From the NCBI GenBank assembly GCA_029204225.1, contig CM055108.1:11255782-11319781 (forward strand): a stretch of 64,000 nucleotides of DNA. Reading direction: 5' to 3'. Shown piece by piece: positions 8,801-36,400 of the stretch (its first letter is position 1; the number at the start of each line of letters is the position of its first letter). The translations under genes and the position numbers were made by a program. Below the pieces are notes generated by a model. That model did no database searches and was not told the origin of the DNA. It saw nothing but the letters and a program-made list of their open reading frames with translations. The DNA is from Diphasiastrum complanatum (Eukaryota > Streptophyta > Lycopodiopsida > Lycopodiales > Lycopodiaceae).

Positions 8801-10120
8801 TGTACTTTTTTTCGTCTTCTATGCCTATTGGCATGAAAAAGACATTAATAAAATCACTGCTCCATGCGCTACAGCCACCATCGCCCTCTAGCCTAGCTGC
8901 TATCCAGATCCCACGTTGCTTGCTGCCTTGCAGAAGGTTCACTAGAGAAGCTATGGCCAAGAACAGGAAAGGGAACAAGTGCATGGATCGGCAGGTATCA
9001 CCTGCCCCCGCTCTTCAACCTTCACTTCAGCTGCACCTTCCGCACCTCCATCTATGACTGGTTCTGATTTGCCTTATGCTATTCCTCTCTCTCCCACCTC
9101 TATTTTGTCTAATATTGAGCCTGCTATTGCTCTTCCCGTTACTCCATCTCAAGAAGCGCTTCCATCAACCTCTTCAATGCTTTTTGCATTCAGTGAAGAG
9201 TTTATAAGGGTCTTCAGAGTTTTTCCAATCACCGGAAAGAAATGGATTCCCATCGAGATGATCCTATCAGTGCAAGCACACCTTCAGCAGGTTGTTTCAT
9301 CCATTACAACTCAAGTAGGAAATTACAGCCATCAAATGTGCAGTACCCTCCCAAGTAGCTACTTCAACTATGATTCAGGACCTCGAAAGTAAAGTGGAGC
9401 AGCATCTTACATCTGTCCAATCTTGGGCAGATATTCTCAAAGGTCCAGGTAAATCGGCAAATGCACCAGTTTATTTCATTTCTGCTACGCAAACTGAGAG
9501 CCAGTTGCGCGAGCAAAAGGCTTCAATGTCCGTGTCAGAGGTATCCCGGATTCTCAAGATGCTCTTACTGAAGCCAAAATTTTTTTGGAAGCTACTCTCC
9601 ATCATCACGACAAAGCTTTGGACTCAGCCTGGCGTACCAAGAAAGATGCTAATACCCTTGTCTTGCGCTTCACCTCCTTGGAATCACGACGGGAGGTACT
9701 GCAACAAAGACACAAACTAAAAGATACCAAGATTTTCCTGGATGAAGACCTCACTTTTGTACAAGTGATGGAAAGAAAAGAGGCTCTGCAAAAAGCGAGA
9801 GACACAGGGACACATCTGATTTATAAGACTGTAAAATCCGTTTTGTTGAAGCTAAGCATTTAGTGGAAACAAAATAGATGATTTTAAAGTTGGAGTTAGA
9901 ATAGAGTTGAGTTTGAGTTTGAGTTTAATATCCAGTTGACCTTGTAAATGGTTGCGTTTTCGCACCATATATTCCTGGACTATTGCATAGTGGTTAGCTA
10001 TAGCTTAGTTTTCTTATCTGGTTGACGATACTGTTCCGTCTTGTTTCCATCATACTTGGATGTATTGTTTTTGTCATATATGCCTTTGGGCATGGAAAAG
10101 ACGTTAATACTTCTTCTTCT

Positions 10121-10189
<69 letters not shown>

Positions 10190-13100
10190 GATCAACACTA
10201 AGTAGGCCGCAACCTCGGAATCGACCACCACCATGATACGGGCGCTTGAGAGTAAAATTGAGCAGCATGAAGATTCATGGGCAGCAATCTTGAAGAAAGG
10301 CACCGCGCCTACCGCCCCCATTTCCTCAGTCATCTCAGCCACCATATTGGAAGAGCGGTCACGGGAGCAGAAGGCCCATAACATTAGGGTTGGCGAGATA
10401 CCGGACACACAAGATGCCATTGCCGAAGCTACGAGATTCCTCGAGACCACTCTAGGACATATGACAGATGGGCTAGATACAGCTTGGAGGACCACCAAAG
10501 ATGCAGCTACATTCATTACCCGTTTCACTTCCCTGAAGAGTCACCGAGATGCTTTGCAATGCAGAGCTAAGCTATGTGGCACCACTATCTATATGGATGA
10601 CGACCTCACATATATCCAGGTAGAGGAGAGGCGTAAGGCCTTTCAGGCAGCCCGTGAGTCTGGCAGACGAGTCATTTATCGAGATGGACGAGTGCGCTTT
10701 CTTGATAGAGCTCCTAGCAGATCACAGTGCTAGGGATTTGGGGTGCCCGGGTCTGGGAGCACCTCGGGGCCCCATCCACACCACCTTCGGATTGGAGTGT
10801 GGAATTGTGCTGGCATACACTCATCTTCTACGGCAGGAGATCTTGTTGATTTTATCACAGGCAGAGACATATTATTCTTTATGGAGACACACGAGAGCCC
10901 GAAGCGAGGACTTCCTTCTTTTCCTAGAAATAGATGGGACTCAGTATTCTGACGAGCGACTAGATCTGCCAGTGGCCGTGGTTCAAGTAAGGTCGCCTGC
11001 TTATACAAAGAGACTCTTCATTCGAGTATTGACTTCATCCGCCATGACGAGCAGCCCGCTACATATGGACTCGCATCGTGGGTCAGGATATTGGTTTGGA
11101 TAGCGATCTTTTCATTGCAGCATGTTACTTTCCACCAGAGTCCTTGTCTTTTGCTAAGGGTATTGGATCTCCATATCAAGACCTTTCACCAGATATTATT
11201 AGATTCAAAGCGGGGGCATATTCTCCTCACAAGGGATTTTAATGCCCGGACATCTTCAAGACAGACAGAGTTCTTCGACACCACTGATCAGCTGCGTGTT
11301 CATGCCCTTGATAGTGATACGCTTGGAGTTACCAGGACCTCCGCGGATAGCTTGGGACCTACTACTTCATATGGTGAGCACTTACTACAGTTTGGAGAGG
11401 CACACACAGTTATACATGCCACCCTCACAGTGGAGGACATAGTGTCATTGACTATCTCATGGGGTCACCATCCTTTATACCCACACTCTGACTTCCACGT
11501 TTCCCCCACCACCCTTTCTGATCACTCATTTCTCTCCTTCGATATTGGCCACCTTCCACCCACTCATTCCCATCATCCTGGTGCACTAACATTATCCACC
11601 CCATCCATAAGAATGGTGACCCCATGATTCCAAGTAACTACCGCAACATCATGATTGGGCATGTCCTGACGAAACTATATGGTACTATACTACAGCCTGT
11701 TGTGAGCACAGAGGCGGACACTAGGAGACTACATGCCATGGGTCAGGTAGGTTTTCGAGCCCACTACTCTATTGAAGACCACATCTTCACATTGCGAGCC
11801 TTGATTGAGTAGGCTACGCACAGGAGAGAGAGGGTTTACTGTTGTTGTGATTGCACTTTATGAGCGTTACCTGGGATGTTTCCGGCATAGCAGTGGCATA
11901 TCCGATCACATTTGGAGCACTATTGGGGTGAAGCACCGTTGCTCCCTCTCACCAGTCCACTTTGGCTTGTATATTGATGAGTTGGAGCGAGTCATTACAC
12001 AGTGTGGTGGTGCTGGTTGCAGGCTTGGGGACATCTTGATTGTTATCCTCCTTTATGTCGATGATGTGGTATTGGTCTCACATACCAGAGAGGGTCTACA
12101 ACGACAGTTGGACTGCTTGCATGAGTTTTGCACCAGATGGGGCCTAGGGGTGGAATTGGGAAGACCAAGGTTATGGTCTTCAACACTTCACGAGCATTCA
12201 TGCAGCGACAGGAACTTACTTTGGGTGGACAGGTTTTAGAGGTGGTCCCTTCCTACACATACATGGGGATCCTTTTCTCAGGTCCTATTTTTAGCATGAG
12301 ACAGTCTGCCACCACTCGACTGGGGAGGGGCATGCCTCCCTTGTTTAGCTAGAGCGATTTTGTTTCCGGAAGTCCATCCAAGATGCTCGCAGTAAGTGTC
12401 GCCTCTTTGATACTATTGTCACCCCCATGGCTCTATTAACAGCTTCAGAATTCCGAATCACTGATTACAATTTACGATCACCAGCCTGTGGGCGAATGAT
12501 GACCCTCTGAGATAGCCGTAGATGGAGCTACAGGTATCATCAATGAGTCAGGTGCTCGCGCACAACCTGCGATCCCAAAACCACGTAGACACAATAGGTG
12601 TGCCTTTATTCTAGTGGGGCCACCTGTGTAGTCCTTGCCACAATACTTGCAAGCCCACCTCTTAGTGCCTGAGGTGCCATAATTAAAAGCAACTGTCACA
12701 TGATCCCACAAGGGATCCTTCTCTCTCGGCATGGTATCTACTATCTAGATTCTAGTCTCTCTCCCCCTCCTAAATTCTGATTTTTCACTCACACACACCT
12801 AAAGGCTAACTCTCCCTCGGACCTCCCTCCACACACACACACACCCCTAAGTCTACCTCCCTCTCTCTCAAAGACTCAAACACACTCATTTAACTTAAGA
12901 ATCTATTCACACACACACAAAACACACACACACAGTTGAAATTCCGATAGAATCTAGTGCAGTATGCAGATCACATCACACAATCACCATAGCCACTCCT
13001 CACAAGCTCTCATAGATGGCACAACAAAAGTTAATAGATTACAAAGAAACACTGTACATATAGAGTATTCACAATCTGCATGAAAAGGCAGGTGTCCTAA

Positions 13101-21400: not shown

Positions 21401-21534
21401 GTTACATAGGTATGTAACAAACACACACACACACACACATTTGTCAACAGTCACACACAGTGAACACACACGTCAACAGCCACACACAACTCCACCCCTC
21501 TCTCTCTCTCTCGGATTTCTCTCGGAACTGTCTC

Positions 21535-21595
<61 letters not shown>

Positions 21596-24427
21596 GTCCT
21601 TGATTCACGAGAAGAACATGCTGCAGTCCAAAGTTGCATCACTCGAACAATCCATCGGGACCAAACAGGCTGCGGTTTCGGCGTCTACCACCAATATGAT
21701 ACGAGAACTAGAGACAAACATGGAAAAGTAGCAAGAAGAGGCCCTTTCTTGGGCATCAGTTTTGAAAAAAGGCACCAAACCAAGCACCCCTATCTCTTCG
21801 GTTATCTCAGCCACCATCTCGGAAGAGAAAACACGAGACCAAAAAGCAAACAACATTAGGGTTCGTGGGATTCCGGATACACAGGATGCCTTGGCTGAAG
21901 CCAAACGCTTTCTTGACACCACTCTCGGGCACAGGACGGACGGGCTAGATACCACAGTTAGGACCACCAGAGATGCAGCCACACTCATCATCCGCTTCAC
22001 TTCCCTCGCGAGTCGCCGAGATGCTTTGCGGTGCAGAGCTAAGCTACGTGGTACCACTATCTACATGGATGACGACCTCACGTATATCCAGGTAAAGGAG
22101 AGGCACAAGGCCTTTCAGGCAGCCCGTGAGTCTGGCAGACGAGTCATTTATCGGGATGGACGAGTGCGCTTTCTTGAGAGCGCTCCTAGCAGCCCCCCGT
22201 GCTAGGGATTTGGGGTGCCTGGGGTTGGGAGCACCCCGGGGCCCCATCCACACCACCTTCGGATGGGAGTGTGGAATTGTGCCGGCATACATTCATCTTC
22301 CACGGCAGGGGACCTGGTTGACTTCATCACAGGCAGAGATATATTATTCATCATGGAGACACACGAGAGCCCAGAGCGAGGACTTCCTTCCTTTCCTGGA
22401 TATAGATGGGACTCAGTATTCCGACGAGAGACTAGATCTACGAGTGGCCGAGGTTCAGGTGGGGTCGCGTGTCTGTACAGAGATACTCTCTATTCGAGTA
22501 TTGACTTCATCCGACATGACGAGCAGGCCCACTACATATGGACTCGCATTGTGGGTCAGGATATTGGTTTGGATAGAGATCTTTTCATTGCAGCATGTTA
22601 CTTTCCACCAAAGTCCTCATCTTTTGCGGAGGGTATTGGGTCTCCATATCAGGACCTCTCACCAGATATTATCAGATTCTCAGAGCAGGGGCATATTCTC
22701 CTCACAGGGGACTTTAATGCCCGAACATCTTCGAGACAGACAGAGTTCTTCGACACCTCCGATTAGCTGCGTGTTCGTGCCCTTGACAACGATATGCTTG
22801 GGGTTACCAGGACCTCCGCGGACAATTTGGGACCTATTACTTCATATGGTGAGCACTTACTATGGTTTGGAGAGGCGCATGAGCTAGCCATTTATAATGG
22901 CTTACCCTGCTGGCTTCATTCAGACAGCTATACATGCCATCCTCATAGTGGAGGACATAGTGTCGTTGACTATCTCATGGGGTCACCATCCTTTGTACCC
23001 ATAGTCTCTGACTTCCGCGTTTCTCCCACCACCCTTTCTGATCACTCATTTCTCTCCTTCGATATCGGCCACCTCCCACCCACTCATTTCTCTACACTAC
23101 CCATGATTACCCGAGCACCCACGTACACATTTGATCCCATTTACATGCCACTGTACCGGCAGTCCTTGGCTTCACTTTTACACTCCTTTCCTCATGACGG
23201 TCTAGTTGACACCTAGGCTGCTTTTCTCACCACCTCTCTCCACACAGCTGCCTCACTAACTCTTCCCACGAAACCCCATTCCCAAAAGACTCGACCTGGC
23301 AGCGCGAAAGATTTTCTTTCGTTTCGTTCGTTTCGTGTCGTGTCTTTGTCTTTCTGGTCATGGAGGCATGTTTGACTTTCGCGAATCATTCGACGTTCGA
23401 GTTTCGCTTCGCTTCGTGTCTTAGGGTTTTCAAGATCCGTTGACTTTCGTGAATTGTTCGCCATTTGACCTTCACTTCGTTTTCGCGTTGCGGCAAAGTT
23501 GCAGGAGTTCACCATTTCTGACAGTGGGTCCTCATAGACTATGAGGGAGCGTAGAGTGGTAGGCATGTCTCCAATGTTTCATGGGCTCGTTTCGTACGTC
23601 GTTTCGAAACGCGTTTGAAACTTGTATGAAACCAATGTTGTGTCGAACCGCGATTCGTTGAAAGAACCGCGATTCGAAAGTCCTTATTTCGTGCATCTCC
23701 TTGTCCTCCGCTGTCTTGATTGCTAGAATGAAATCTGTTCTGTGATCTGTAGTCGCGTGTCTAGGTTCCTGTGAGCTTCCGCACAAAAGAAAATTCAAAG
23801 AAACAAAATCGTTTGCGACAACGAAACAAACCCGTTCGCGACACCCACGGTGTGTCGCTATGATTGGTACGCGAGATGTCCATATTGCGGAGAGATGTAT
23901 ACGGGACATCCTAGCATTTTACCTCTCGGCCATTGACTTCCTTCTTTACTAGACAGAGACTGCGTGATATAGTGCCTGCGGATGATGATGACGACGACGA
24001 CGAGGATATCCGATTACATCCTCATAGAGATCAGAGAAAGTGTACTTCCCATCATCACGTCACTTCCAGGATCACCAGGCATTCTACACAGAGACGTACT
24101 ACTACACATGCACATGCTCATGCTCATAGACAACGCCAGCAAGCTCCAGTGCTTTCTCATGTTGCGGCTTGCATTACATCTTTCTACAGCATCAGCATAA
24201 CAGCAGCATCAGCACAACAGCGACATCAGCACAATCTTGACATCTTGACATGGATACATATGACTATTATGCACACACACTCTCGCTTATGTGTCTATTT
24301 AGTTTGTACTAGATGTTTTCTTTATTACAGCTTTGGAGATGTTTTATGCGCTCCCATGGTTACCACATACTTGACATGTACTTCATTAGTCTTATATGCC
24401 TTTTGGCATGGCAAAGACATTGATAAA

Positions 24428-24495
<68 letters not shown>

Positions 24496-27400
24496 GCAGC
24501 GATGGTGCCCCTCTCTTTGGCAGCGATGGTAGCTCCATCAATGGCTCGTGATGGGTGCACTCAGACAGCACTCATAGGTTTTCTCTCCATCGCATTTCAG
24601 GAAGGAGGATTTTCTCTCCAGCGCACTTCAAGAAGGAAGCTTTTTTCAAATCATTGCTGCTCTAAAGGGGCAGAATCTGAACATAGGAGGGTAGCGAACT
24701 ATTGGAGCGCATTTCTGATCATAGAAGTGCCCCCCTTGGTGCTGCCTTCCAGCGATCGCTGATCCGACCCCTGTCCATTCCTGTTCACACCCACATCTGA
24801 CCCCTGTCCACACCCTGTCCTCTCTGCATATGGCCTCTACCAAACGTGATGGGGCCTCTTCACCCCCCTCTTCTCATGCTTTTCTTGACCAGGCTTCTGA
24901 TGGCCAGTCAACCATCGCCGGCTCTTCCCCTTCGTTTACCGGTCTGTCTTTCTCATCACCTCATTCTCCTTTGCAGGGCATTGCCAATACGCCGGTTCCA
25001 ATATTATCTCATACAGATTCCTACCTTGCTTATCATATCCATGTTGAACAATTACAACCTAGCAACTTATCCGACTTTGAATCTCTCAACGGCTACTTAC
25101 AACACCAGTTCAAAGAAGTGTTTCAATTTATCGGAAAATTGCAGCTACAAAATCAGACACTTCATGGACTTACCATATCGACATGATGAAAGAGAAAGGG
25201 ATACAGAGGATACTGATTCACAACAAGATGTGGAAAGTAAAATCTCATCTTTGGCAAAGGAAGTGGAAGACACTCGTACTTGGGCTTCAGTTCTTAAGCA
25301 AGCTGGTAATTCCTCTAACCAAGTTCAGCCTTCGTTAGTGAATTCTACCTTAGAGAATGTTTTTACAGAAGGGCCAAGAAGGCTCTTAATATACGAGTTA
25401 GGGGTATCCCTAATGGAAACAAGGCACTTGATGAGGCGAAAGACCTTGTATCTAAACTTGCACATAATATGGAGGGATTTGACACTGCTTGGGGGAGCAA
25501 ATTTGATGAAAAAGGTCTCATTCATAAAGTTTCACTCCATTGAACAACGCAATGCTACTTTACGCCTTCGAGCTAAGCTCAAAGGATCTTTTATTTTTAT
25601 GGATGAAGATCTAACACACACACAATGGCAAGCGCGGAAATTGGTCATTCAGGAGGCCAATGCTAGAAATCAAAGAGTGGTCTTTATTGAAGGCAAGCCT
25701 AAATTCTACGATAAGATTTCACAATAGGAAATCGGGGATCCCGGGCACAACAACCCGAGATACCCCTCAGCCATTACGAATTGGTTTTGGAATTGTAACG
25801 GTGTGCTCTCATCTTCTTCGGCAGGGGATTTTCACTCCTTTTTACAGAAAGGTGATACTTTGCTCTTAGCAGAGACTCATGAATCACTGTATCGACCTCT
25901 TCCAGCCATTCAGCATTACTCATGGTATTCAAGTACAGGCCTTTCTTAAGAGGAAAAACCACATGTGGCTCTGGTGGTGTTGCATGTCTTACCGAGGAAG
26001 TTTTTCGTACTCATTTCAAGCTACTCAAAAGTGATCCATTTGCACGATTTATTTGGTTACAGTTTTTTGGTCATTTCTTAGGGCTACCTCAAGATCTCTT
26101 TATAGCAGTTTGTTATTTTGCACCTCAGACATCAGCTTTTGCAGATTATGGTGGTGACCCCTTCCAGGCTCTTTCCGATGATATAGCCAGCTTTTCACAG
26201 CAGGGCCTTATTTTATTAGCAAGCCATTTTAATGCTCGCACCAACACCCAGCAGACAGAGTTTCATGCAGATGGTGATTTCCTACATATTCAGGTTTTGG
26301 ATGTGGGTTTGGTCAGGACCTCTCAGGATGCAGATACCCCAGCTACACACTTTGGAGAACAGTTGATTGGACTTGCAGAAGCTCACTCTTTAGCCATTCT
26401 GAATGGCCTTTCTCGATGGCCATCCTCATCAGTTTTTACCTGCCATCCGCACGGTGGTGGACACAGCGTTGTTGACTACTTCAATGGCTCACCAGCCTTA
26501 ATTCCATTTCTTCATACTTTTCATATTATGCACCCTACCATCTCTTATCACTCTCTATTGCTCCTGTCTCTTGGCCATGCTACTCTTGGTACTGTTACGA
26601 CTCCGCATTCCACACGTCGCCATCGTCCTCCTTTCTCTCCAATTGGTCGTCCTACTTACACTTCCTCTCTGGCCACAATGCTCGACGATTTCCCCTTCTC
26701 ATCTTCAGTAGACCAACAAGCCGCCTTTTTATCCCGGTCGCTTCTTTGTTCAACCAATATTGCATACCCTCCAAAAACTTTTTCATCTCATAAACGCACT
26801 TACAATAGATGGTATGATGATGAGTGCCTCTCTCTACACAAGCAGATTGTTCACGCCCAATATCACTCTCCCGACACCTTAGCATCTAAACAAAGAGAAT
26901 ACCATAGAATGACTTTGTGGAAGAAGACCACGTACTTTCAGTCTCTGGCACAAAAACTCATTGATTCCTTGGACTCTTCTTCTTCCACCTTCTTTTGGGA
27001 TGTTCTCTAAAAACTCTTGCATGCCAGCTCCTATTGCCATTGAATCGTGGATTGACTATGCTGCAAAACTTTATACAGTTGACTCTCCTTCCATCTCTCT
27101 CTCACCACGACCATTAAAATTCACCCTTTTCACTCCGTCCATGATTGAAAACGCCATAAAAAATGGCCAAAACCATAAAGTTGTTGACGTTGACTCCCTA
27201 AGTATGGACTTTCTAAAACCTATCGCCCATATTGTTGCTCCATACATCTCTTACGTTTTTAACCAATCTGTTATTTTTGGCCTTCCCACACCTTGGTGTA
27301 CTAACCTTTTGCACCCTATACTTAAGCCCGTGCTCCACCTCTGCTCCTTGACGACTTGCGCATTTGGACTAAGTATGCCACTGCTTTATATACCATCGAT

Positions 27401-30336
27401 ACCGATACACCTATTACCATTTCCCCTAGACCTCCCGAGTTTACCTTCTTCACTTCTGATATGGTCCACAATGCTATCAAGAAAATGAACACCAATAAAG
27501 CTAGGGATATTGATGACCTTGATTCCGAGCTTTTAATCCATGCTGCGGATTTACTATCACCTCTCCTAGCCACTCTACTCAATCAAGCCATTGTCTACGG
27601 TTTTCCTTCTTCTTGGCACCAACATCATCCATCCCATACACAAAAATGGTGAACCCAAGAATCCTAGTAACTATCGGACTCTTATGATTGGGCACGTTAT
27701 CACGAAGCTGTATGGCACTATTCTTCAGTCAGCTGTCAGTACCGAGTCAGAGACCAGGAGATTGCATGCTATGGGCCAGGCTGGATTTAGAGCTCACTAT
27801 TCTACCACAAATCATATCTTTACTCTCAGAGCCATTATTGAGGAAGCTCGACACCGGCGAGAGTGAGTCTATTGCTGCTTCGTTGACTTCAGGAAAGCCT
27901 TTGACTCTGTCCCACGCTCCTTACTCATCCAGCGGATACGAGACCTTGGTTTTTCTGATGACACAGTCCTAGCAGTGATGGCACTTTACGAGAGTTTTGG
28001 GATGTTTCCGGAGTGACAGAGGTATCTCAGAGCATATCATAAGCACTATTTGGGTGAAACGGGGATGTTCCCTCTCCCATACACTTTTTGGATTATATAT
28101 TGATGAGTTGGAGAGAGTTATTAGGCAGTGCGGTGGTTCTGGTTGCAGACTTGGTGACATCTTGATCGCTATTCTTCTTTATGCAGATGATGTGGTTCTA
28201 CTTTCACCTACTCGAGAGGGGTTACAGAGACAGATTGATTGTCTTCATGATTTGTTCCAAATGGGGCCTAGGGGTGAACATTGTGAAGACCAAAGTGATG
28301 GCCTTCAACACTTCCAGGAGCTTTATGTTGAGACAGGAGCTCCTTTTTGACAGTCGGCCATTAGAGATTGTTCCACCCTACACTTACTTGAGCACACTTT
28401 TTACTGGTCCTATATTTAGTATGAGACAAAAAGCTTCTAGTAGACTAGGGAAAGGCCATGCTTCCCTTGCCCAAATGGAGGGATTTTGCTTCCGTAAGTC
28501 TATTCGAGATGCCTCAAGTAAGTGTCGGCTTTTTGACACCATCGTTTCTCCTACAGCACCATATGCATCAGCTGCATGGTGTACGGGCCAGTATCTCGCG
28601 ATTACAGATTCCTATGCTTTCATGCATGATTCGGGCTAAGCCTTCAGTACCACACCAGATCACCCTTGCTGAGTTTGCAGTTCCGCCTATGTACCTTGAT
28701 GCCTTACTCCAACACATCACATATATTCAGCGCGTCAATGCGTTCCAGTCCTCTGAGCAGAGATTTACTCAGGTTGCTCTCATTTCATCTCAGCATCTTC
28801 ACATTCAGGGCTACCATGTGGCCTGGTTCTCTCAGGCCTCCAGACTTCTTAGCACACTCGATATCTCTATCACTGCTCTTCCTTCTGGTACCCATGACTA
28901 AATTAGACGATTCATAAACTACAAGTTGTTTATGCTATGATTCCGCTCTCCTCACACCTTAGCCTTGATACAAAAGGAATATCACAAAGTGACTCTGAAA
29001 AAAAGACAGCCTATCTACAGTCCTTGGGACAAAAACTTGTTGATGCTATTGCCTCCCCATCCTCCTCTTTCTTTTGGCAGATGTTCTCTAAAAACCCTTA
29101 TAAACCCGCTCCTATTGCTATAGAGTCATGGATAAACTATGCTACCAAGCTTTATACAGTAGACTCTCTTTCCATTTCTCTTTCCCCACGCCCTTCAGAA
29201 TTCACCCTCTTCACCCCATCCATGGTTGAAAACGCCATCAAAATGGTCAAACCCATAAAGCCACTGATGTTGACCTCTTAAGCATGGACTTCCTAAAACC
29301 AGTTCCTCACATTATTGCGCCATACATTTCCCATATCTTTAACAAATCCGTCATCTTCGGCCTCCCCACATCATGGTGCACCAACCTTTTACACCCTATC
29401 CTCAAAGTCGGGGATCCTTTGAATGTAGACAACTACCACACTATTATGATCAGTCATACTATGGTCAAGCTATATGGATCAATTTTGCAATCTATTATCA
29501 GCTCTCAGGCAGAGACAAAGGGGTTACATGCTATGGGACAGGCAGGTTTTCGCACTGGCTACTCCACGGCTAACCAGATATTCATCTTGAGATGTATTAT
29601 TGAGGAGGCTAAGTTCAGGAAGCGGAGGGTTTATTGTTGCTTTGTGGACTTCTGCAAAGCCTTTGATTTTGTTCCGAGACACCTTTTACTCCAGCGCCTA
29701 ACATCGCTTGGCTTTTCTCAGGAGATCATTGCTGCTATCATCATATTGTACGAGAGAGTGTTGGCCCGTTTTCGAGATGGTGATGGATGGTCCTCTTATG
29801 TTCATACTTACACTTGGTTCTTTCCTTGCCTACTCAGATGCGAGATGTGTTGGTTTGTTCATATGCAAGATGTGTTGGTTTGTTCTTACGAGAAATTTTT
29901 ACTCTAAGATCTTCTCTTTTATTCGATGCTTCTGATGTGGATCATAGCCAGTCACACATTACGCACTTTCCCAGAAGAGGGATAGAGATGAGACTTCTAA
30001 CAATGAGATAGACACTCCGGTACAACGGTCAAAGCTCCAGCAGGCTCTTCACCAGAGGCCAACGCCTGCTTCCCACCATATCACGCCGTTTTTTATATCC
30101 ACTTAGCTAGTTAGTTAACTTATATCAGTTTTATCTTTCCCTCTGAGTAGCTGGTGGTTAAGCTACTGATATTGTACCCTCGACAGAGCTAGAGGTTAAA
30201 CTTTGTTTGTCTCTCTGTTTTCTTGTTCCGGTTTAGCTTACAGGAATAAGTCCTACATGGACAATGCTCCTTTTTGGATGTACTTTTTACTTGTCTTATG
30301 TGCCCACGGGCACTTGATAGACATTAATATAATTCT

Positions 30337-33400: not shown

Positions 33401-36400
33401 TCCCTGTGCCCTCATCTGGATGGAGCAATTCATTACTTTAGGAGCTTTATGGAAAATTTTACAAAAGTTAGCTGGTGAGAAAAATGCACCATTAAAGAAA
33501 GTAAAAAATCAGAAAAAAAAATTAGCTAGCTACATCATCCACAAAGATCTGACAAAATTGGATGCAATTTATCAATCATACATCTAGAGTAGAGTAGAGT
33601 AGACTTACTCCAACCACAGTTTCTCTTGCCTTCCATCACAAACAGCATGGTCTATTTGCAATAAATATCAAAGCATGATCAAAACAAAGAGTACCTAGTT
33701 ATTTCAATCGCAAAGAATGAACAACAAAAGTAGTCAATTCACATCACTACTAGTTCATAGAAAAAATATTTCGACAATCTTTGATTAAACAAGATTCTTT
33801 ACTAGTGATTGGCACAAAGAGTGATAGAGATCATTAACATACATGATGAGCACTACATTATTTAGCATTGTTTACGCTCGGGTCATTTTAAAGAATATTC
33901 ATTTCAAAAGAGTAGTGTCTGAAGCTATTTCATCAAGTTATATTTTCAATAAGCCTTACTTGGATAAGGCTGACACAATAGTTGGCATATCTCGTTGATG
34001 CAAGTCTCCAAGACCAAGCTGGCCTTTCTGTCCACACAATTTCAAGTAAGAACAATAATTTCAATCATAAATTATAACCATGAGTACAAAAATCAAAATC
34101 CAGCATAAAAACATGAAACTTTTGCAATTTACTATTAAAAAATCACATCAGTCCCATCGATAGAATCTCCAAACTCACCTGTTGTCAAGGAAGAATGGAT
34201 ATTGTTACAGTTCCAGAAACATATCTATAGATGGTGTGGATGGGACCTTGGGGCAGGGCACCGCGTTGCCCAGAGGCCGTAACTCCCTATGCTTGTTAAC
34301 TGCTACGAACTGATTGCATGTCCATGAAGCATGCACGCATTTAAGCTTCCCTTGCATCTATACCATCCATGTTTGCAGCTCTTCTATTTGTTTCAACACT
34401 TTTTGCTTTCCTATCTGCAGTTGCATGACTATTTCCATTTCTAAAACTATTGCAATCAACAGTAGAGAGCTGAGATATCCATCTTCTGCAAGGCCAGTGA
34501 CTTTGTAGGCCATTTTTGGTGTTGTTAGGATAGCTTTAGGAGACCTTTGCCCCTCAATTGTTGTTGCTTCGAGAGGGACTTCAGAAGTTGTAAATGGTAT
34601 CAAATTTCCATAAGGTAAACTTGGACCCAACTTTAGGCAATCAAAGGTAGCAGACATTGATTAAAGGCAACCAGATAGCAATAGTAGCCAACAGAACTAT
34701 AACAGCGAGATATGGCATCCAACAATACCCCTTGGAGTGAGTGAGCGACTTGGCGCAAGCAAGAGTAACAATCAACTAGCATCATCCTAACGCATCTACT
34801 ACTAGCAAAATCCAAAACCTTTATTGCTCCCAAGAGGAATAACTACCATCGGTGGCAAATTATTGGTGCTACTTATCTAGCCTTCATTTTTAGCCATTAG
34901 AAGTGTGAACTTTGAAGAGAAAGAGTATTCTGAATCAGCCAAAGATGAAGATCTCAAAGGAGTTAAGAGAATTTTGTTTATTGAATGGAATTCACCATCA
35001 TTTACTACCAAATATTCTCCTCAGTCAAATGGGGTAGCGGAAAGGAAGAATAGGACATTGGCAGAAAGGTGCATGTTAACACATGCTGGGTTACTGCTGT
35101 AAAGCTGACTCAGGTGCACCAAGGTGCCCTGTAAGACTCTAAGGGGTGACACTCCTTACATGTCCCAGAGCAAGTTAGGAAGTCAAGGACTGAGCCTCCG
35201 ATCTGTGGTGAGCCAGCCAAGTAGTCACAAGTCATGAGCTAGCTCTGGAGCTCGAGTCATGGCCTAGTCATGAGCCAAGTTGATTCTACCGCCAGGACGG
35301 CTCCCGAGACCCATGTCTGGGAGCTTGACTAATTCTGCCAGGCTTAATCAGCAAAATAAAAACTAAGTCCAAAAAAGCGTGCTTTACCAGAAAGCACTAT
35401 ATTCCAAGACAGAGGGGGGGCGCCGAAGCACACCAGAACTATAGGGGGAGTCCGTTGGCAGACAGAGACTTGGGCAGCTCAACCAGCGCCAGGAATCCAG
35501 TCGCCAAGTCTCAGCTCCCTCTACCAGTGCGAGCCAGGCACAATGCCCAACACGTGTTGGTGGCTCCAAGACCACTCAGTCTATGTATGAATGTAACCTC
35601 TTCCATATTTAATAAAGTTGATCCTTGGGGATGATTACCACTTCGGTTTCACCTCCGAGACTGGTCCAAGTGGAAGGACCCTTACTACAACTTTTTTGCG
35701 TCGCTGGCGCCTAAGGGTCCACATGGCTCGCCGCTATGCCATTTGGTCAGTTTGGCAACCACTATGGCTTGGGTTTCATGTGTGGCTTGTCTTTGCCTCT
35801 GGTGACCTTTTGGGAACGGATTCTAAGTTGGCTTTCGGGTTGGTTGGGACTCCAGTTTTCTTAAGTCTGAATGGTTAAGCTTGTTACGTTTTCTAAGTTG
35901 GCTTTTACGTAAGTGCATGATGGATGAATGGCGCGTGTTGGGATAACCCCTCAAGTCCCAGTGCCCTTTGAGGCGCCGGCGCAATAGTTACCTAAGAACT
36001 TTTGGGCTAAAGCAGTCACTACAACCGGATGGATTCAAAATAGATGTTGCACAAGACGTCTTCAAGATAAGACAACCTACAAGCTATGGATAGGGACAAA
36101 GCCTTCTTTGAAGAACTTGAAGGTAGGAAAAAGTCAAGGATACAAGTTCGAAATGTATATTCATTGGATATCCATCAGATTATAAAAGATATAAGATTTA
36201 TGATCCAATATCATCAAAGACATTTGTGAGCAGAGATGTGGCCTTTGTTGAAGATCAGTTCTATGATTTCAAGACAAAAGGCAAAGTACCTGACTCAACT
36301 CTTTCAGTTACTATTTTTGACCTTATTATAGGAATAACTCTAGAGATCCAACAAGGTGCAAATGGGAACCAGGCCCTTAAAAGAAGTTACCTGATCATAC

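Follow-up and report, generated by a model that had tools for sequence, protein, structure and literature searches.

The stretch analysed (the window; 64,000 nt of the lycopod Diphasiastrum complanatum, assembly GCA_029204225.1, contig CM055108.1, positions 11,255,782 to 11,319,781 of the forward strand) carries four homologous junctions between two open reading frames, ORF1 and ORF2, of long interspersed nuclear elements (LINEs). The analysis is centred on the junction in LINE 3 (W3), at which ORF1 ends with UAG, ORF2 with its endonuclease (EN) continues in that frame, and the stop codon is proposed to be read through. The features of W3 are as follows, positions being those of the window here and below:

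21732–22202, plus strand: C-terminal open frame of ORF1, 157 codons, frame identical to that of EN

22203–22205, plus strand: ORF1 stop UAG, the proposed readthrough codon

22206–22211, plus strand: 6-nt spacer GGAUUU, giving a type III-like UAG-GGA context

22206–22766, plus strand: start of ORF2, spacer peptide GFGVPG.. and then EN

22212–22218, plus strand: 5' arm of stem 1, GGGGUGC, pairing with 22231–22237

22231–22237, plus strand: 3' arm of stem 1, GCACCCC, partner of 22212–22218

22212–22245, plus strand: alternative extended stem-loop, 22212–22215 pairing with 22242–22245 and 22218–22225 with 22233–22240

22263–22265, plus strand: ATG private to W3

The original prediction, made from the letters of the window, placed the ORF1 stop at 22203–22205 with ORF2 behind it in one frame; this was confirmed, and the EN was identified by Pfam (Exo_endo_phos, PF03372, 1.2e-10), the W of its WNC motif lying at 22272. 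The window copy is decayed, its ORF2 being stopped at 22764–22766; the relatives L021, L026 and L032 have 353–503 open codons at the position of ORF1. The apurinic/apyrimidinic (AP)-like endonuclease in ORF2, accompanied in L019 by a match to PF14529 (2.6e-6), is that of an APE-type LINE; no match to ORF2 of L019 was obtained in PDB. ORF1 of L026 gave no match to L1 ORF1p in Pfam or PDB, the weak matches being mostly to coiled-coil families, and an L1-type ORF1 was rejected as lacking Pfam/PDB support. Farther downstream, the match of LINE 3 ORF2 to W4, the divergent LINE of the window, ends at 23294; different-looking sequence follows and then a LINE-like 3' end near 24440 (23294–24440).

Close relatives of LINE 3 (W3 family): positions 22080–22400 were used as query against the genome from which the window comes (1.74 Gb); the best 40 of 2272 candidates (93–100% identical, W3 included) were taken and LINE 2 of the window (W2) was added, giving 41 rows, 26 of them distinct over 70 columns; some rows come from unplaced contigs and are perhaps duplicated by the assembly. 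TAG was found at the junction in 40 of the 41 rows and CAG in one decayed copy (L030); the base after TAG is G in 39 rows and C in L041 and L043; the distance from TAG to the EN tryptophan is 69 nt, with ORF2 in frame, in 39 rows. When 331 codon columns were scanned, the TAG junction was the only column commonly stopped (runner-up 5/41). Variants common to at least three rows contain fewer amino-acid changes than expected (83:47 in ORF1 and 73:41 in EN, the EN region being counted to near 22731; binomial p ~0.03 each), and no such deficit was seen for rare variants (382:133 and 290:105, respectively). Synonymous constraint in the spacer is at the level of a suggestion (0.018 vs 0.041 at third positions; p 0.06 by permutation), and over all its positions the spacer takes rank 64 of 264 windows.

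Diverged groups: thirteen 10-kb stretches of the genome (four next to the window, the other nine elsewhere at rounded coordinates) were sampled and gave one further junction, L054, whose EN protein shares 54% identity with that of W3 and whose TAG is in frame with EN, also at 69 nt. W3 and L054 can be aligned over 980 nt at 60% identity, and their longest identical run is the 14-nt UAGGGAUUUGGGGU, which starts at the stop codon itself, so that the spacer is the same in both despite the overall divergence. The W4 group was obtained by a search with the W4 junction (best 40 of 670 candidates) and the L054 group by a search with the L054 junction (41 matches, 71–84% identical to L054 over the matched stretch); the counts given for both cover part of the matches. 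W4 group: TAG in 27/27 rows, W4 included; next triplet GAA (14) or GGA (13); of 25 rows in which the distance to EN could be measured, 24 have it at 63 nt, in frame. L054 group: TAG in 29/31 rows; G next in 27 of the 29 TAG rows; next triplet GGA in 23/31; EN in frame, despite decay, in 19 of 29 measurable rows (p=0.0004 vs 1/3 by chance), at distances of 63 (10 rows), 69 (6), 66 (2) and 60 nt (1). Two ~40-kb blocks, C2:10005750-10050905 and C2:26516209-26555770, lie 16.5 Mb apart on one contig in opposite orientation. Both contain the same two LINE matches; in one pair the identity to L054 is 100%, and in the other the scores are equal. The arrangement is that of an inverted duplication or of an assembly duplicate.

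EN protein likeness among the groups is about 37–54%, and the manner in which the differences are distributed bears on the use of ORF2. Between W3 and L054 the EN differences at first/second/third codon positions amount to 54/40/96 of 167; this is a purifying pattern, and from the third-position excess it follows that a working protein was kept. The 23 codons past UAG differ at 7/6/8 positions with no third-position excess, which is the outcome to be expected under joint constraint on RNA and protein. Because of the purifying EN pattern and the reduced number of amino-acid changes among the shared variants of the W3 family, ORF2 was probably in use while UAG stood before it.

The claim that no ATG is conserved before EN also held. 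One of the 41 W3-family rows has an AUG in frame in the interval from UAG to the EN tryptophan, namely W3 itself, the private ATG of which (22263–22265) is replaced by ATT in 39 rows and by ACT in one; two of the 41 rows are themselves out of frame; the W4 and L054 groups together have an in-frame AUG before the EN tryptophan in 3 of 43 in-frame rows. Termination-reinitiation or near-cognate initiation would supply ORF2 by a restart at a non-AUG codon, e.g., an AUU shortly before WNC, the ribosome being kept in place by the stem. Such an AUU stands three codons before W in 39/41 W3-family rows, and precedents exist: according to the accessible text of PMC5972666, SART1 and L1 are, as here, LINEs with the second ORF expressed from one RNA, SART1 being described as reinitiating with a required downstream structure, and an unconventional variant of reinitiation having been proposed for L1. 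Termination-reinitiation, which is thus used or proposed in both, predicts neither the identity of UAG nor the UAG-GRA context nor the frame link, the spacers being mostly multiples of three; the frame-keeping spacer counts against it because reinitiation would not need it, and we regard this route as unlikely for the present elements. Just two protein relatives, P0001 and P0002, were found; P0001 begins with Met at EN, which could mean that another organism has an AUG at this place or that the gene caller truncated the protein.

RNA structure downstream of UAG: the pairing of GGGGTGC (22212–22218) with GCACCCC (22231–22237) noted in the original prediction was borne out, 97.3% of the cells of stem 1 being paired in the 26 distinct rows of the W3 family. 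The loop TGGGG (22220–22224) can indeed pair with CCCCA (22242–22246); 75.4% of the cells of this second helix are paired, and its outer U-A pair is present in 4 of the 26 rows. The calculated energies for W3 are −25.7 kcal/mol (extended stem-loop) vs −13.6 (stem 1) vs −5.4 (second helix taken alone), and the cells paired in the family amount to 94.2% for the extended stem-loop vs 88.1% for the predicted pseudoknot model. A compact pseudoknot of the murine leukaemia virus type is not supported, its second helix being poorly conserved; by energy and pairing the extended stem-loop is favoured, and a comparable stem-loop is possible in the other two groups. In the W4 group the stem starts exactly 6 nt past UAG (GGGGAUC with GAUCCCC, then CGGG with CCCG); 96.8% and 89.8% of the cells are paired in 22 distinct rows, and the two rows that were folded gave z scores of −4.89 (L071) and −3.84, with 0/300 shuffles as good. 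Of the seven pairs in stem 1, two have both bases changed between W3 (GGGGUGC/GCACCCC) and the W4 group (GGGGAUC/GAUCCCC) and still pair. In ten equal-length rows of the L054 group 84.5% of the cells are paired. A GC stem 6 nt past UAG can form in all three groups, in many copies though not in all, and a stem of one form or another at this fixed distance is likely to be part of the signal, the support within each group being weak.

Comparison of the three groups shows that the UAG and its context are conserved, that ORF2 is linked to it in frame, that an AUG in frame is rare and that a stem could form at a constant distance. On this basis it is probable that programmed readthrough of the type III-like UAG-GRA kind yields an ORF1-ORF2 fusion in these LINEs. 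Most ribosomes would halt at the UAG of ORF1 and release the ORF1 protein, and a minority would decode UAG with a near-cognate tRNA, assisted by the UAG-GRA context and by the GC stem-loop beginning 6 nt downstream; the latter ribosomes would stay in frame and translate a short linker and then the endonuclease, ORF2 becoming a C-terminal extension of ORF1. That readthrough occurs, and at which rate, with which tRNA and with what role of the stem, is what we infer from this layout. The fusion by UAG readthrough put forward in the original prediction is in this respect well supported by three diverged groups from the same genome, and its pseudoknot of the leukaemia virus kind is unsupported. It had also been proposed there that genomic copies be collected: UAG and frame proved to be kept and the stem to be possible at 6 nt, compensatory changes being nearly absent within families. 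It further appears likely, with somewhat less confidence than the readthrough itself, that reliance on the UAG-GRA and stem signal for the fusion is of long standing in a whole LINE lineage of this genome; every ORF2 protein would then start with an ORF1 part, by which it could stay attached to the RNA that encodes it, and ORF1-only offshoots (L052; window 9516–9827) lack the UAG-G context.

Several results weigh against readthrough or against a role of the stem in it. (i) Compensatory changes: no double changes were found in the W3 family, either for stem 1 and the pseudoknot or for the extended stem-loop; the W4 group has none in stem 1 and one pair in the inner stem; ten L054-group rows have one double change, slid controls giving 0 to 2. 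(ii) Folding: the energy of the W3 60-nt fold is ordinary for its composition (z −0.93; second estimate −1.25), six folds of the L054 group gave z −2.31, −1.87, −1.0, −0.7, −0.1 and 0.56, and L054 itself folds otherwise. (iii) Frame: 10 of the 29 measurable L054-group rows, all decayed, are out of frame (56, 62 (3 rows), 65, 67, 68 (2), 71 and 73 nt), and L102, one of the two 66-nt rows, nearly duplicates the out-of-frame row L098; of the window copies, W4 is in frame owing to two mutually compensating indels by which it differs from its siblings, and EN of the fourth junction (W5) is out of frame with UAG. (iv) Sampling: the W4 and L054 junctions were found with a TAG-containing pattern (up to 4 errors), which favours TAG, two non-TAG rows being returned all the same; and the rows share ancestry, the counts being for this reason not independent.

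The common history of the copies also lends itself to the explanation that no special mechanism is at work, the UAG being a fossil of ORF1 termination in dead copies and ORF2 being made from unseen intact copies or otherwise; it agrees with this that no copy was demonstrated to be intact (1500 bases on each side were inspected in the W3 family). Under this explanation one would not look for agreement in codon, context, frame and place of the stem between groups so far apart in EN protein, nor for the purifying EN pattern and the deficit of amino-acid changes among shared variants in both ORFs, and the sole CAG row is decayed; we consider it quite improbable. Least probable of all is a bypass of the stop in RNA, by intron removal or by U-to-C editing of UAG to CAG, no support for which was found: editing of the latter type occurs in organelles of some land plants, nuclear editing of such a kind is not known to us, and the fixed 6-nt spacer and the stem are unexpected under any such bypass.

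Among known systems, programmed readthrough as proposed here is nearest to that of type III, for which contexts of UAG-GGR (Tombusviridae) and UAG-G (gammaretroviruses) are given, with structures typically ~8 nt past the stop (accessible part of PMC3542737). Common to both are UAG and a 3' G or purine-rich context; a downstream RNA structure is possible in the LINEs too, and in most of the present sequences ORF2 stands in frame without an AUG of its own. The differences are that the element is a LINE, that the stem-loop lies 6 nt past the stop, and that no pseudoknot or long-distance partner is established. For LINE ORF2, readthrough was earlier suggested for one group (Group 3) of Paramecium non-LTR (long terminal repeat) retrotransposons, solo-ORF1 elements being mentioned as well; the host is a ciliate, and no stop context or stem is described in the accessible part of that paper (PMC5405496), the only one within the literature examined that names readthrough for LINE ORF2. 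The LINEs of the window are accordingly a variant on an earlier suggestion and not without precedent. Tca2 of Candida albicans, an LTR element with ORFs split by one stop (UGA) and a potential 3' pseudoknot, calls for caution: its junction alone failed to direct readthrough in a yeast reporter (PMC2194720, as far as accessible), and a convincing layout may likewise fail here. No report of readthrough for ORF2 of a plant LINE was recognised in the literature searched, most subscription papers lying outside it, and the same search found no paper on lycophyte LINEs.

How LINEs produce ORF2 is an old question, and the answers documented in the literature examined invoke reinitiation of one kind or another. 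Readthrough of the retroviral sort, if it does operate in a LINE, would be convergent; the recoding would set the ORF1:ORF2 ratio and physically tie ORF2 to ORF1. The signal is short and is present in many copies.

The remaining junction copies of the window have the following features:

10206–10730, plus strand: ORF1 open frame of LINE 2 (W2)

10731–10733, plus strand: LINE 2 ORF1 stop, UAG-GGA

10740–10765, plus strand: LINE 2 stem, GGGGUGC (10740–10746) with GCACCUC (10759–10765), one G-U pair

24801–25724, plus strand: ORF1 open frame of the divergent LINE (W4), ~27% amino-acid identity to W3 ORF1

25725–25727, plus strand: W4 ORF1 stop, UAG-GAA

25734–25766, plus strand: W4 stem-loop 6 nt past UAG, GGGGAUC (25734–25740) with GAU-A-CCCC (25759–25766), z −2.95

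34216–34289, minus strand: fourth homologous junction (W5), heavily decayed, UAG-GGA at 34289–34287; nhmmer match 34310–34147, E 1.1e-9

LINE 2 was said to keep the arrangement of LINE 3 with one G-U pair in the stem, and it does. W4, seen from the window copy alone, was considered as a homologous junction in the +1 frame; this was rejected, its siblings showing the 63-nt in-frame layout. An RVT_1 match (5.1e-7) lies in the window open frame 29230–29904 and is not tied to any particular EN copy. In a genome scan with RVT_1, many of at least 150 matches were in uninterrupted frames of ~1600 codons, seemingly the result of a recent retroelement expansion that has nothing to do with the LINEs described here.

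ORF1-only elements (window 9516–10115; L052:7487 to ~8170) have an ORF1 with 45–56% amino-acid identity to that of W3 and no ORF2; a LINE-like 3' end (..TTTGG(G)CATGGAAAAGACGTTAATA.. and then a TC repeat) comes directly after ORF1. ORF1 ends with TGA in L052; in the window it ends with TAG-A or TAG-T, depending on a frameshift, so that the UAG-G context is absent from both. Long TC/CT repeats adjoin the start or the end of LINEs (21500–21600, 24433–24493, 10120–10185) and are maybe a 3' tail or a target preference.
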